Source: Natronomonas halophila (GTDB lineage Archaea; Halobacteriota; Halobacteria; Halobacteriales; Haloarculaceae). Taken from it: a stretch of DNA of 64,000 nucleotides. Positions 7,530 to 55,356 of the stretch are shown piece by piece. Below the pieces are notes generated by a model, which was not told the origin of the DNA, searched no databases, and saw only the letters and a list, made by a program, of their open reading frames with translations. Within the stretch, counting starts at the first letter, position 1. Each line of letters begins with the position of its first letter. Position numbers and translations under genes: made by a program. The stretch spans positions 2,976,001 to 3,040,000 of the forward strand of contig NZ_CP058334.1 in assembly GCF_013391085.1 (NCBI RefSeq), in the 5' to 3' direction.

Positions 7530-8894
7530 CTACGGCCACCTCCCGCCGATGGAGTAGACGGGGACGTCCGCCGACCCCGCATCGACCGCCCGTCGGCCGT
7601 CGAGAATCGGCGCGTCGAAGGCCGCCCAATCGAGGTCGGCGAACTCGTCGTGTGGCGTCACCACGACGACGGCGTCGACGTCCTGCTCGTAGACGTCCGG
7701 GAGGGCGACCCGTTCGACGTCGAGGTCGTCCCAGTCGTCCAACATCGGGTCCGCGGCGAGCACCGTCGACCCCTCTTCCCGGAGCAGTCGGGCGATGGGC
7801 AGCGACGGGGCGTTCCGGAGTTCCTCGATGTTGGCCTTGTAGGTCATCCCCAGCAGGAGGACACGGGAATCGGCCGGGGCGACGCCCTCCGTATCGAGGA
7901 CGTGCCGGAGCATCGATACGGTGTAGTCGGCCATCCCGTCGTTGATGTCTCGGGCAGTCGGAAGGAGGGGGTCGTCGACGTCGAAGGCGCCGGTGAGGAA
8001 GTACGGGTACACCGGGATGCAATGGCCGCCGACGCCGGGGCCGGGGGTGTGAATCTCACAGAACGGCTGTGTGTTGGCGACGTCGATGGCCTCGTTGACG
8101 TCGATGTCCATCGGCCGGGAGTACTTCGCCAGTTGGTTCGCCAGCGCGATGTTGACGTCCCGGTAGACGCCCTCGAAGACCTTGACGGCCTCCGCGGTCG
8201 TCGCGTCGGTGGTCTCGACGATGCGATTATCGCTGATTTCGTCGTAGATGAGCGCCGCGGCGCGGGTGCTTTCGGCGTCGACGCCGCCGACCACCTTCGG
8301 ATGGGTCCCGCGAATGTCGGCCAGCGCCTGCCCGCTGACGGTTCGTTCGGGGCAGGCGGCGGCGCCGAACTCCTCGGGGGAGAGGCCGCTCGTCTCGGCC
8401 AGCAGGGGGACGACGAGGTCGGTCGTCGTTCGCGGCGGCACCGTCGATTCGACGACGACGAGGTCGCCGGGCGACAGTCCCGCGCCCACGTCCCGGACCG
8501 CCGACAGAAGCGCCGCGAGGTCGGGTTTCTGTTCGTCGGTCAACAGCGTCGGCACCATGAGGACGTGGACGGCGGCCTCCTCGGCGGCCGCGGCCGAATC
8601 CGTCGTCGCCCGGAAGGCGCCGTCCTCGACCATGTCAGTGACGAGTTCCGAGAGTCCGGGTTCCCGTTTGATATGGCAGTCGCCGTTGTTGATGGTCTGC
8701 ACGACGTCCTCGTCGATGTCGACGCCGATGGCGTTCCCGGAGACGGCCGCATAGACAGCCGCCAGCGGCAGGCCCATCTTCCCGAGGCCGTAGACGGCGA
8801 CCGGTACGTCACCGCCGGTGAACGCCGCTCGCTGGGCGGTTTCGTCCTCGGCGGCCCCGTACAGGCCCGTGCGTTCGCCGACCTGCTGGCTCAT
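7530..8894 (-). CDS. UDP-N-acetyl-hexosamine 6-dehydrogenase (WecC/WbpA family)
   Basis: 454 residues. It oxidises C6 of a UDP-HexNAc to the uronic acid with two NAD+. The Rossmann motif VYGLGKMGLP is at 34-43. The central helix AEAVKVFEGVYRDVNIALAN is shared with UDP-ManNAc dehydrogenases. The catalytic cysteine sits in GVGGHCIPVYPYFL (C292). The C-terminal substrate domain is complete. About 30 extra residues precede the first strand; ATG at 8894 overlaps the stop of the Gfo/Idh gene by four bases and is therefore preferred. Clustered with the Gfo/Idh enzyme it would supply a UDP-HexNAc-uronate for 3-amination. GlcNAc versus ManNAc substrate cannot be told. Confidence 0.92.
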   Translation of the reverse strand: MSQQVGERTGLYGAAEDETAQRAAFTGGDVPVAVYGLGKMGLPLAAVYAAVSGNAIGVDIDEDVVQTINNGDCHIKREPGLSELVTDMVEDGAFRATTDSAAAAEEAAVHVLMVPTLLTDEQKPDLAALLSAVRDVGAGLSPGDLVVVESTVPPRTTTDLVVPLLAETSGLSPEEFGAAACPERTVSGQALADIRGTHPKVVGGVDAESTRAAALIYDEISDNRIVETTDATTAEAVKVFEGVYRDVNIALANQLAKYSRPMDIDVNEAIDVANTQPFCEIHTPGPGVGGHCIPVYPYFLTGAFDVDDPLLPTARDINDGMADYTVSMLRHVLDTEGVAPADSRVLLLGMTYKANIEELRNAPSLPIARLLREEGSTVLAADPMLDDWDDLDVERVALPDVYEQDVDAVVVVTPHDEFADLDWAAFDAPILDGRRAVDAGSADVPVYSIGGRWP

Positions 8895-52505: not shown

Positions 52506-53159
52506 ATGACCGACGAATTCGGCGTGTATCTGGTGACCGACGAGGGCCTTTCAGCGGGTCGCTCGACGGTCGAAATCGTCGAGGCCGCCATCCGTGGCGG
52601 CATCGATGTCGTCCAGTTGCGCGAAAAATCCGCCAGCGCGACCGACCGTTACGAACTCGGACGGAAACTCCGCGAACTGACCCGCGAGGCCGACGTTCCG
52701 CTCATCGTCAACGACCGCGTCGACCTCGCAGTCGCGCTCGATGCCGACGGCGTCCATCTCGGCGACGACGACCTGCCCGTCTCGGTCGCCCGCGAGCAGT
52801 TGGGCGAGGAGGCCATCATCGGCCGGTCGGTCTCGACGCCCGAGGCCGCCCGACGGGCCGAAGCGGCCGGCGCGGATTACCTCGGTGTCGGCGCCGTCTT
52901 CGCGACGGAGTCGAAAGGCGACGTGCCGCCCGAGGAGATGGGTATCGGCCTCGACCGGATTCGCGCGGTTCGAGAGGCGACGGACCTGCCGTTCGTCGGC
53001 ATCGGCGGTGTGACGCCCGAAAACGCCGCGGACGTGGTTCAGGCGGGTGCCGACGGTGTTGCCGTCATCTCGGCGATTACGGGTGCCGACGACCCCGAAG
53101 CCGCGACTCAGGAACTCCACGATGCGGTCCGAGGGCGAGGGGTATCGGCTGATGTCTGA
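52506..53159 (+). CDS. thiE: Thiamine-phosphate synthase
   Basis: 217 residues, TIM-barrel: VYLVTDEGLS, VVQLREKSASATDRYELG, VPLIVNDRVDLAVALDADGV, LGDDDLPVSVAREQL, and ADYLGVGAVFATESKGD followed by PFVGIGGVT. It joins HMP-PP and thiazole-phosphate to give thiamine phosphate. ATG 52506 is the first in the conserved strand; a longer upstream frame overlaps the XapX gene. It overlaps thiM by eight bases. Confidence 0.94.
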   Translation: MTDEFGVYLVTDEGLSAGRSTVEIVEAAIRGGIDVVQLREKSASATDRYELGRKLRELTREADVPLIVNDRVDLAVALDADGVHLGDDDLPVSVAREQLGEEAIIGRSVSTPEAARRAEAAGADYLGVGAVFATESKGDVPPEEMGIGLDRIRAVREATDLPFVGIGGVTPENAADVVQAGADGVAVISAITGADDPEAATQELHDAVRGRGVSADV

Positions 53160-53985
53160 GGTCGATATCGACCTCTCGGCGGCGCTGGCGTCTGTCGAAC
53201 AGGCCGGCCCGCTGGTCAACTCCGTGACGAACAACGTGACGGTCAACGACGTTGCCAACGTCACCCTGCACTGGGGCGGCCTGCCGGTCATGTCCGACGA
53301 CGAACGGGAAGTCGGCGAGATGGTCTCGACCGCACAGGCCTGTCTGCTCAACATGGGCACGGTCGACGAGGCCGGCGAGCGGGCGATGATGGCAGCCGGC
53401 GATGCTGCCAACGAAAGCGACGTTCCCCTCGTCGTCGACCCGGTTGGCGTCGGCGCCACGTCGGTGCGGGACGGCGTCGCCGGACGGCTCGTCTCCGACC
53501 TCGACGTGACAGTCCTGAAAGGCAATTACGCCGAAATCACGGCACTCGTCGGAGAGGATGCGGAGGTCCGCGGTGTCGAATCGGTCGGCGAATACTCCGA
53601 TATCGCCGAAACTGCCGTCGCCTGCGCTCGGGAACACGATACCGTCGTGGTCGCCTCCGGCGAGACGGACGTCGTTGCCACCGACGAAGCCGCCTACGAG
53701 GTGTCGGTCGGCCACCCGCTGATGGGACAGGTCGTCGGCACCGGCTGTATGCTCGGGGTCACCCTCGCGACGTTCGGCGGCGGCCTCGGCGTCGACCGGC
53801 CGCTCGAAATCGCGCTCGCGGGCACCGCCTGCTTCGGCCTCGCCGGCGAACGCGCAGCGGATGAGGGCGAATACAACGGCCCTGCGAGTTACAAAACGGC
53901 GTTCCTCGATACGGTCGCCAACATGGGTGCGGCGAACGCCCCCGTTGCCGACGAGCGTATTGAGCGGGTGCTTTCGGTGGAGTAA
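53152..53985 (+). CDS. thiM: Hydroxyethylthiazole kinase
   Basis: 277 residues. PLVNSVTNNVTVNDVANVTL is the ThiM N-terminal signature; VDPVGVGATSVRDGV and LKGNYAEITALVG follow; GTGCMLGVTLATFGGG is the anion-hole segment, with Cys at the site where related kinases have catalytic Asp/Cys. It phosphorylates the thiazole alcohol for ThiE. ATG 53152 sits inside the thiE end, fixing the start; coupling is tight. No TPP riboswitch pattern was found upstream. Confidence 0.93.
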   Translation: MSEVDIDLSAALASVEQAGPLVNSVTNNVTVNDVANVTLHWGGLPVMSDDEREVGEMVSTAQACLLNMGTVDEAGERAMMAAGDAANESDVPLVVDPVGVGATSVRDGVAGRLVSDLDVTVLKGNYAEITALVGEDAEVRGVESVGEYSDIAETAVACAREHDTVVVASGETDVVATDEAAYEVSVGHPLMGQVVGTGCMLGVTLATFGGGLGVDRPLEIALAGTACFGLAGERAADEGEYNGPASYKTAFLDTVANMGAANAPVADERIERVLSVE

Positions 53986-54017
53986 GGGCTGACTGTTTTA
54001 AAATCGAGAGATTGCAT

Positions 54018-54164
54018 CCGCCGAGTGGGGCGCTTGAAAAGCGCCCCCGAGGCGGTTCACCGCGCGACCGCAGGGAGCGCGGGACCAAGGCCCGACCGCA
54101 GGGAGGGCCGCCGTGTCTTTTTCATCGAAGTTTTTGCCGGCGCGCGAAGCGCGCCGTGCAAAAA
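54018..54164. repeat. Array of four stem-loops between convergent genes
   Basis: Four hairpins in 150 bases between thiM and the OsmC gene. (1) GGGGCGCTT-GAA-AAGCGCCCC at 54027-54047, inside an outer CCGCC/GGCGG pair (54018-54022 with 54051-54055). (2) CCGCGC-N11-GCGCGG at 54060-54082. (3) GGCCC-N11-GGGCC at 54089-54109. (4) CGGCGCGC-GAA-GCGCGCCG at 54138-54156, flanked by a further TTTTTGC/GCAAAAA pairing, 54131-54164. Hairpins 2 and 3 carry the identical 11-base loop GACCGCAGGGA. T-runs near 54117-54123 and 54131-54135 suit termination. Confidence 0.7.
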
Positions 54165-54172
54165 GTTCGTGG

Positions 54173-54571
54173 TTAGAAAGCGCCCGTCGTCACGTCGACG
54201 TCGGCGTAGAGGCTCTCCTTCAGCGAATCGTGGACGTGGCAGATGTCCTCGCCGAGTTCGAGAACGTCGTCTACCTCGTCGTCGCTGAGGTCGGCCTCGA
54301 TTTGCATGTGGAAGCGAATCGCGGTGAGGTCGTCATCGTCGTTGATGTCGGCCTCGGCTTCGGTTTCGACCTTGCCGAGGTCGATGTCGAGTTCGTTCGA
54401 GGCGCCGGCACGGCAGGCGAACGTAAAGCAGGAGGCGTAGTCGGCGACGAGAACCTGATTGGGGCTGGGGCCTTCCTGCTCGGTTGCGTCGATGCTGAGT
54501 TCGAAATCGCCGGCACGGCTCAGCGCGTGATACTTCTCTTCGTTGACGGTGGTGGTGTTTATATCAGCCAT
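54173..54571 (-). CDS. OsmC/Ohr-family peroxiredoxin-like protein
   Basis: 132 residues. PSPNQVLVADYASCFTFACR carries the first redox Cys (C48) and LGEDICHVHDSL carries the second one. OsmC reduces organic hydroperoxides via a Cys pair. ATG 54571 lies about 30 nt after TATA TTTTTATG (54597-54604, minus), which favours it over the longer start at 54595. It is the convergent neighbour of thiM. Confidence 0.9.
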   Translation of the reverse strand: MADINTTTVNEEKYHALSRAGDFELSIDATEQEGPSPNQVLVADYASCFTFACRAGASNELDIDLGKVETEAEADINDDDDLTAIRFHMQIEADLSDDEVDDVLELGEDICHVHDSLKESLYADVDVTTGAF

Positions 54572-54630
54572 AACAATCGAACGGTCGCACGGCACGCATA
54601 AAAAGGTGGGTCGCTTGCGGTCGGCTCCTG

Positions 54631-55356
54631 TCAGCCGTCCAGCGTGAACGTCTCTTCGCCTTTGAGGATGACTGCCTCGGCCTCGGTGCCGGTGGCCTTC
54701 AGTTCGCGTTCGAAGTCGGCGGTGTCGATTTCGATGGGCGGGAAGGTGTCGTAGTGCATCGGGGCGGCGTAGTCGACGCCGAGCCAGTCGGCGGCGATGG
54801 CGGCCTGTGTCGGCCCCATCGTGAAGTGGTCGCCGGCCGGCAGCGCGGCGAAGTCGGGCTCGAGGAACGGCCCGATGACGTCGCGCATCTCGGTCAGTAG
54901 GCTGGTGTCACCGGCGTGGTAGAAGGCGGTGTTGTCGCGGTCGGCTTCCTGCGTGGGCTTCTTTTCGCTGATGACGAAACCGCCCGGGACGCCGGCGGAG
55001 GCGCCGTAATCGGTCTCGATGCCGTTGGTGTGGGCCGCCTGTGTCATCGTCACCCACGCGTCGCCGCACTCGACGGTGCCACCGATGTTCATCCCTATCC
55101 CCCCGACGGCGTCGTAGTCGCCGAAGTTGTCCTCGACATAGGAGACCAGTTCCGGCACCGCGACGAGGCCAGCACCCTCGTAGCGGTCGACGTCGCCGAT
55201 GTGGTCGGCGTGGCCGTGCGTGAGGAGGACGTAGTCGGGGTCCAGTTCCTCGGGGTCGGTGTCGGTCTTCGGGTTGTCGAAGAACGGGTCGATGAGTAGG
55301 TCGGTATCTTCGAGGCTCACATGCCACGTCGAATGACCGTACCAGGTAAGGTCCAT
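54631..55356 (-). CDS. Metallo-beta-lactamase-fold hydrolase, UPF0173 family
   Basis: 241 residues. [20 protein letters not shown] opens the family; [10 protein letters not shown] (46-55) binds the metals; [13 protein letters not shown] and PMHYDTFPP provide further His/Asp ligands. Cytosolic hydrolase of unknown natural substrate. A minus-strand TATA-like CTTATTAGTG (55385-55394) precedes the start by about 30 nt. Confidence 0.9.

Follow-up and report, generated by a model that had tools for sequence, protein, structure and literature searches.

What is the row of four hairpins that lies between two convergent genes of a Natronomonas chromosome (3.21 Mb), and what might it do there? The site falls within the window analyzed here (the whole stretch of 64,000 nucleotides, to which all positions below refer unless a genome is named), and two of its hairpins seemed at first to present the same 11-base loop. 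Here, we describe the site, the repeat family to which it belongs, and the readings that its sequence allows.

The thiM-osmC site

The left gene, thiM (hydroxyethylthiazole kinase; Pfam PF02110, E value 3.6e-62), runs on the plus strand from 53047 to 53985 (stop TAA, 53983 to 53985), and the convergent right gene encodes an OsmC-like protein (PF02566, E value 1.2e-16) on the minus strand from 54173 to 54595 (stop codon, 54173 to 54175). All gene calls were made with a codon-score script, not taken from annotation. The four adjacent hairpins reported in the preliminary description were recovered, with stems of 9 bp (54027 to 54047), 6 bp (54060 to 54082), 5 bp (54089 to 54109), and 8 bp (54131 to 54164), the last extendable to 15 bp with one bulge. 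The site folded better than all of 200 dinucleotide shuffles (z = −4.9 as RNA and −5.6 as DNA).

Read on the plus strand, hairpin P1 (54018 to 54055) has a 9-bp stem with a GAA triloop (54036 to 54038) and, past a GA/GA step, five additional outer pairs (CCGCC, 54018 to 54022, with GGCGG, 54051 to 54055). Hairpin P2 (54060 to 54082) encloses GACCGCAGGGA, which contributes a GA/GA step, CC/GG, and a GCA triloop, within CCGCGC/GCGCGG; hairpin P3 (54083 to 54117) encloses a second GACCGCAGGGA within GGCCC/GGGCC on an invariant base, GACC/G(T)GTC. The linker GTGTCTTTTTCAT (54113 to 54125, plus strand) is invariant in 22 of 22 aligned copies and contains a T5C tract (54118 to 54123) that may act as a plus-strand terminator. 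Hairpin P4 (54126 to 54169, plus strand) consists of an 8-bp GC stem with a GAA triloop, TTTTTGC/GCAAAAA, and, past a G·G mismatch, four additional pairs (CGAA, 54126 to 54129, with TTCG, 54166 to 54169). It carries T5 tracts on both strands, that of the minus strand (54160 to 54164) lying 8 nt past the osmC stop codon. GNA triloops (GAA, GCA, GCA, and GAA) cap all four hairpins.

Because P1 and P4 have these extra outer pairs, we place the whole element, which is of the type called A below, at 54014 to 54169 (156 bp, plus strand), where it ends 3 nt from the osmC stop codon. The covariance model R1 matches it over the same span (G000:C1:3030014-3030169; 149.4 bits; E value 2.7e-41; alignment A1), this copy being one of the 22 on which R1 was trained.

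Both GACCGCAGGGA copies are present as first described (54066 to 54076 and 54094 to 54104), but the 11-mer is itself paired: it is structured as GA-CC-GCA-GG-GA, in which tandem G·A pairs lead through two base pairs to a GNA triloop, and is not an open loop. The suggestion that function and conservation reside in the shared loop had to be abandoned, since at the same positions other copies have GAGCGAAGCGA, GAACGAAGTGA, or no tandem-GA step.

A repeat family with constant linkers

A search of the chromosome found GACCGNAGGGA at 96 sites (6 for the reversed control), so the motif is not unique. Reading 94 of them, with sites of identical context merged, revealed several element types in which linkers are constant and hairpins variable. 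Type A has the architecture GCATCCGC-P1-GCGGTTC-P2-GGGACCRAGG-P3-GTGTCTTTTTCAT-nnnn-GTTTTTGCC-P4-GTGCAAAAAG-n'n'n'n', and its linker pattern occurs at 47 sites (5 in the control). R1 was built from 22 aligned type A copies (alignment A1, copies passing a strict regular expression; a T-tract anchor had found 34) and has 40 matches of at least 82 bits in its own genome. Type A copies number about 43, counting these 40 and three matches at 57 to 66 bits and leaving out two at 62 to 63 bits that were assigned to type B by eye.

In the 22-copy MAFFT alignment, linkers are nearly invariant and hairpins covary strongly: paired cells amount to 97.7%, double changes occur in 16 of 42 pairs, and 76 cells are double changed (21.4 when shuffled, 2 to 6 in slid versions). 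Of 134 elements, defined by regular expression and drawn from many genomes, 120 have outer P4 arms that are complementary for 4 bp or more (1,000 shuffles: mean, 39.3; maximum, 56); arm classes include CGAA/TTCG, GAAC/GTTC, CGAC/GTCG, and CCAT/ATGG. Motif counts, fold z-scores, and covariation rule out a chance origin of the hairpins. What is conserved is the set of inter-hairpin linkers together with a structural rule, C-G-closed triloops and tandem GA/GA steps.

Other elements share parts of this design. Type B (L012, L022, L028, and L065 in G000, and others) combines the left and right modules of type A with a different middle (GTAGCGCCGACTGACTAACGC-hairpin-GGCTGGAAGGAGGCGCGCATATTTTCACC). 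Types C (L040, L048, L051, L052, L043, and L027) and D (L014, L026, and L069) are separate multicopy intergenic families with GACCGNAGGGA tips and other linkers; they adjoin ordinary genes such as those for SRP54 and SHMT, and an IS605 origin was rejected because 10 nearby open reading frames were ordinary genes and none was a transposase. Double-hairpin modules of about 60 to 70 nt, with constant linkers of their own (GACGCAGCCCATCAG, GGCATGACGAAAG, and CCGAACCGTCGTGG), are recurrently inserted within elements (G015:C1:1456167, G009:C1:3219039, G015:C2:952652, and G015:C1:1506747). Head-to-head pairs of elements lie about 70 to 90 nt apart (L072, with 2815169-2815357 on the minus strand and 2815428-2815584 on the plus strand; L019; L047); in some, both outer ends are near stop codons, and the centers have a weak consensus and no uniform promoter.

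R1 matches were found in 45 of 60 genomes, the source genome included. Among the counts listed, many genomes of the same genus have 18 to 42, and five, at 98 to 99% completeness, have only 1 to 4 weak matches; type A is thus patchy within its own genus and dispensable. After osmC, which was found in 19 other Natronomonas genomes, the sequence is unlike that at the thiM-osmC site, and no type A element occurs in the 330 bases covered per genome. Most of the weak R1 matches read in other genera and in the poor same-genus genomes (14 loci) are a simpler form, GCATCCGC-P1-GCGGTTC-P2-CTTTTTCA-nnnn-GTTTTTG-P4-AAAAAG-n'n'n'n'; a few others are still of type A or are missing the left end. Double changes occur in 11 of 26 predicted pairs among 15 simple elements. 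The left-module pattern, GCATCCGCGN{8,38}GCGGTTC, is present in 101 of 155 genomes of the class Halobacteria (4 reversed-control matches in all), although some of the matches listed resemble chance matches in coding sequence. At L035 and L055 (G000) and L153 (G041; another family), elements abut genes with GGM-rich C termini, which we take to be thermosome subunit-like.

A palindromic repeat family, one of the possibilities first raised for the hairpins, is therefore what the GACCGNAGGGA sites, the linker pattern, the R1 matches, and the left-module pattern in many genomes establish. The preliminary description was to be dropped if its motif proved unique to this site and absent from close relatives, and on checking that was not the case.

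Gene ends and a probable role in termination

The 43 type A copies lie between convergent genes in 22 cases, tandem genes in 20, and divergent genes in 1, and G015 (N. gomsonensis) and G009 added 16 elements, from two contiguous regions in synteny, with counts of 6, 10, and 0. Pooled, the 59 elements comprise 28 convergent, 30 tandem (15 ++ and 15 −−), and 1 divergent, against a background of 141 convergent, 139 divergent, and 446 tandem among 726 intergenic regions. The deficit of divergent sites is significant against both 139/726 (binomial P = 5.4e-5) and the 58 of 161 regions of at least 150 bp (P = 1.2e-10). Thirty-one of the 43 type A elements have a minus-strand open reading frame whose end lies −2 to +19 nt away (two of the 31, at 8021 and 2053636, disagree with the gene calls), and the minus-strand T5 tract therefore comes right after its stop codon. 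The thiM-osmC copy likewise has a T5(C) tract close behind the stop codon: T5 on the minus strand and T5C on the plus strand. A terminator scan of 53900 to 54700 found no bacterial-type hairpin followed by a T run; the T5C tract starts 8 nt downstream of the GGCCC/GGGCC stem of P3.

In a Haloferax reporter, termination reached 95% of transcripts with inserted T5C and 59% with one hairpin (PMC7237163). From gene-end placement and this precedent, the family would most likely comprise intergenic gene-end elements that serve as bidirectional transcription terminators and insulators, with fast hairpin turnover. The bidirectional terminator of the preliminary description thus stands as the best functional guess, and one drawn from placement and T5 tracts. 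Against it stand the lack of a hairpin followed by a T run in the scanned interval and the dispensability of type A; moreover, the elaborate hairpins go unexplained if haloarchaeal termination needs no more than a T tract.

Site retention and hairpin replacement between species

G015 and G009 share about 93% identity across much of their syntenic region. Together they hold 51 R1 elements, of which 31 were matched between the same flanks in the other genome and 6 were unmatched; of the other 14, 3 had just a single flank and 11 allowed no judgment. None of the 37 assessable comparisons revealed a precise empty site, in a sample biased toward occupied places because regions outside the contiguous part were chosen for holding R1 matches. 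By eye, the 6 places without an R1 match hold another form of the element (3), a remnant (1), or a different neighborhood (2).

The 31 matched elements reduce to 15 clean site pairs, with an element between the same genes in both species, and in these pairs single hairpins are wholly replaced by sequences that are again self-complementary. At G015:C2:16854 and G009:1369829, the difference is almost confined to P4. For the 9 of 15 site pairs that could be segmented, mean identity was 0.94 in the right flank, 0.72 in the left flank, 0.86 in P1, 0.59 in the middle, and 0.74 in P4 (non-orthologous elements: P1, 0.75; middle, 0.52; P4, 0.63). P1 is identical in 3 of the 9, and its frequent retention tempers any claim of general turnover. 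The P4 loop is inverted in 3 of the 9 (G009:C1:1363255/G015:C2:23828, 206871/952652, and 1573220/1381310, with loops GTT/AAC, ACA/TGT, and GCA/TGC), which is what template switching would be expected to leave when it inverts a hairpin. At some orthologous sites the element type itself switches (A-like versus B, B versus simple). Of 36 right-hand genes in the source genome, 8 have orthologues (at least 78% identity) in G009/G015 that carry an element at the corresponding stop codon, and for one of these eight shared genes the arms are GAAA/TTTC, GAAC/GTTC, and CGAC/GTCG in three species. Template switching is a known source of multibase compensatory change (PMC8794818), and the replacement pattern would be compatible with it or with conversion between copies.

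The same comparisons bear on the strongest rival of the terminator reading, a selfish, nonautonomous mobile repeat (like REP/BIME, PATEs, or small mobile repeats) without host function and tolerated only at gene 3' ends. Many copies, patchiness within the genus, head-to-head pairs about 70 nt apart, and recurrent double-hairpin modules inserted inside hairpins all suit such a repeat, and elements of this kind are known from Haloquadratum (PMC3119063). We consider it unlikely nonetheless: no precise empty site was seen, the 6 orthologous places without an R1 match are otherwise explained, and the 8 of 36 right-hand genes keep their element at the same stop codon in the G009/G015 orthologues. 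Plasmids, phages, and viral contigs gave no match to the element. Counts of the Y1 (RAYT) transposase (PF01797) do not appear to follow copy number, with 0 in G010 (about 30 elements) and 4 in G002 (4 weak matches), some genomes being incomplete.

Strand preference

Loops and stems were counted in 79 elements (43 plus 36). Triloops cap 262 of 311 hairpins (186 GNA, 22 TNC, and 54 other), with C-G closing 252 of them, and tandem steps are GA/GA in 195 cases against TC/TC in 2; the excess of GNA and GA/GA therefore indicates that one strand is favored. This one-strand dependence is more than a purely symmetric terminator would need and counts against the terminator reading. Isolated G·T and A·C mismatches are equally frequent (20 each, among 2,614 Watson-Crick pairs), with no RNA-type wobble bias, and on that equality the stems look maintained as near-perfect DNA palindromes rather than as RNA helices. 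The RNA and DNA parameter sets of ViennaRNA give no special energy to GNA triloops, and neither discriminates between the two levels.

The strand bias of loops and GA/GA steps would also suit a structured small RNA gene, transcribed on the plus strand from its own promoter near GCATCC, folding into P1 to P3 and ending at T5C. Conservation of linkers and covariation resemble those of noncoding RNA families, and some copies have a TATA-like sequence about 20 to 25 nt upstream. Yet 42 upstream regions share no uniform TATA or promoter, for which reason an own promoter was rejected as a general feature, RNA helices should favor G·U where G·T and A·C stand at 20:20, and tandem copies are divided 15:15 by orientation. 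Rfam gave no hit at the gathering score at the site (one tRNA elsewhere in the window) and none at E values up to 1. We regard the small RNA gene as improbable, more so than the mobile repeat. No tRNA genes were found in 11 loci, mostly copies for which no right gene on the minus strand is evident.

Least plausible, and very much so, is that the DNA hairpins, cruciform or single stranded, bind protein or organize the chromosome at convergent gene ends independently of termination: C-GNA-G triloops and tandem G·A steps are described as unusually stable in DNA, and C-G closure of 252 of 262 triloops and wobble symmetry agree with such a role, but it does not need the conserved T5 tracts and linkers, and the ViennaRNA sets give the triloops no special energy.

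Proposed mechanism

Under the terminator and insulator reading, RNA polymerase arriving from the right gene would stop at T5 soon after passing the stop codon, and that from the left gene at T5C/T5 after the hairpins, possibly assisted by hairpins extruded from the plus DNA strand or formed in RNA. Perfection of the stems may be upheld in the DNA itself, through template switching inside a palindrome or through conversion with other copies as donors; rapid turnover of hairpins between unchanging linkers would then be accounted for.

More tentatively, and with the balance somewhat against it, haloarchaea might carry modular gene-end elements genome-wide and exchange single hairpins in them as cassettes (replaced, inverted, or nested independently), linkers and position being vertically inherited, through a DNA-level mechanism that accepts only palindromes which pair perfectly and have C-GNA-G loops on one strand. 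Selection, or the preference of an enzyme, would in that case act on the form of a hairpin and not on its sequence.

Conserved at many gene ends in Halobacteria and absent from Rfam, the element would offer a defined cis-element on which haloarchaeal termination and the insulation of convergent genes can be tested. The turnover of its hairpins amounts to a natural experiment in the making and keeping of perfect stems, and template switching or conversion is directly testable because two species, about 93% identical around these sites, have the element between the same genes but differ in its hairpins.

Comparison with known systems

We place the element among intergenic palindromic gene-end elements, as a variant not previously described in the literature searched (titles and abstracts, none of which describe it; subscription journals were mostly outside the search). 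Its working would resemble that of a BIME or a convergent-gene terminator. BIME/REP elements of enterobacteria are likewise intergenic palindromes, present in many copies at the 3' ends of genes; they avoid divergent regions and form head-to-head pairs. REP palindromes are conserved in sequence, whereas here the hairpins vary and the linkers are constant.

With archaeal T-tract terminators, as PMC7237163 presents them for Haloferax, the element shares T5C downstream of stop codons and hairpins near some termination sites, and it lies downstream of genes, with 1 of 59 copies between divergent genes. It differs from them in its size (about 150 bp) and its several hairpins, in the conservation of its linkers, in its high copy number, and in having T5 on both strands. 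In a bacterial-type intrinsic terminator, a T run directly follows the stem, an arrangement of which 53900 to 54700 has none.

The PATEs and small mobile repeats of Haloquadratum (PMC3119063) are also short, noncoding, palindrome-rich haloarchaeal repeats. In contrast to these, the present element has no evident terminal inverted repeats (by eye, its ends, GCATCCGC on the left and AAAAAGTTCG on the right, do not form inverted repeats of the prominent kind seen in SMR-A), is kept between the same genes, and has ordinary neighbors; the strain-specific insertion with an empty site that is typical of IS605/PATE was not seen in the 37 comparisons, biased as these are to occupied places. Finally, the template-switch evolution of RNA hairpins treated in PMC8794818 has in common with our case multibase compensatory change in one event; RNA genes are concerned there, whereas the present case is one of DNA repeats in which entire hairpins give way to others that differ in length.
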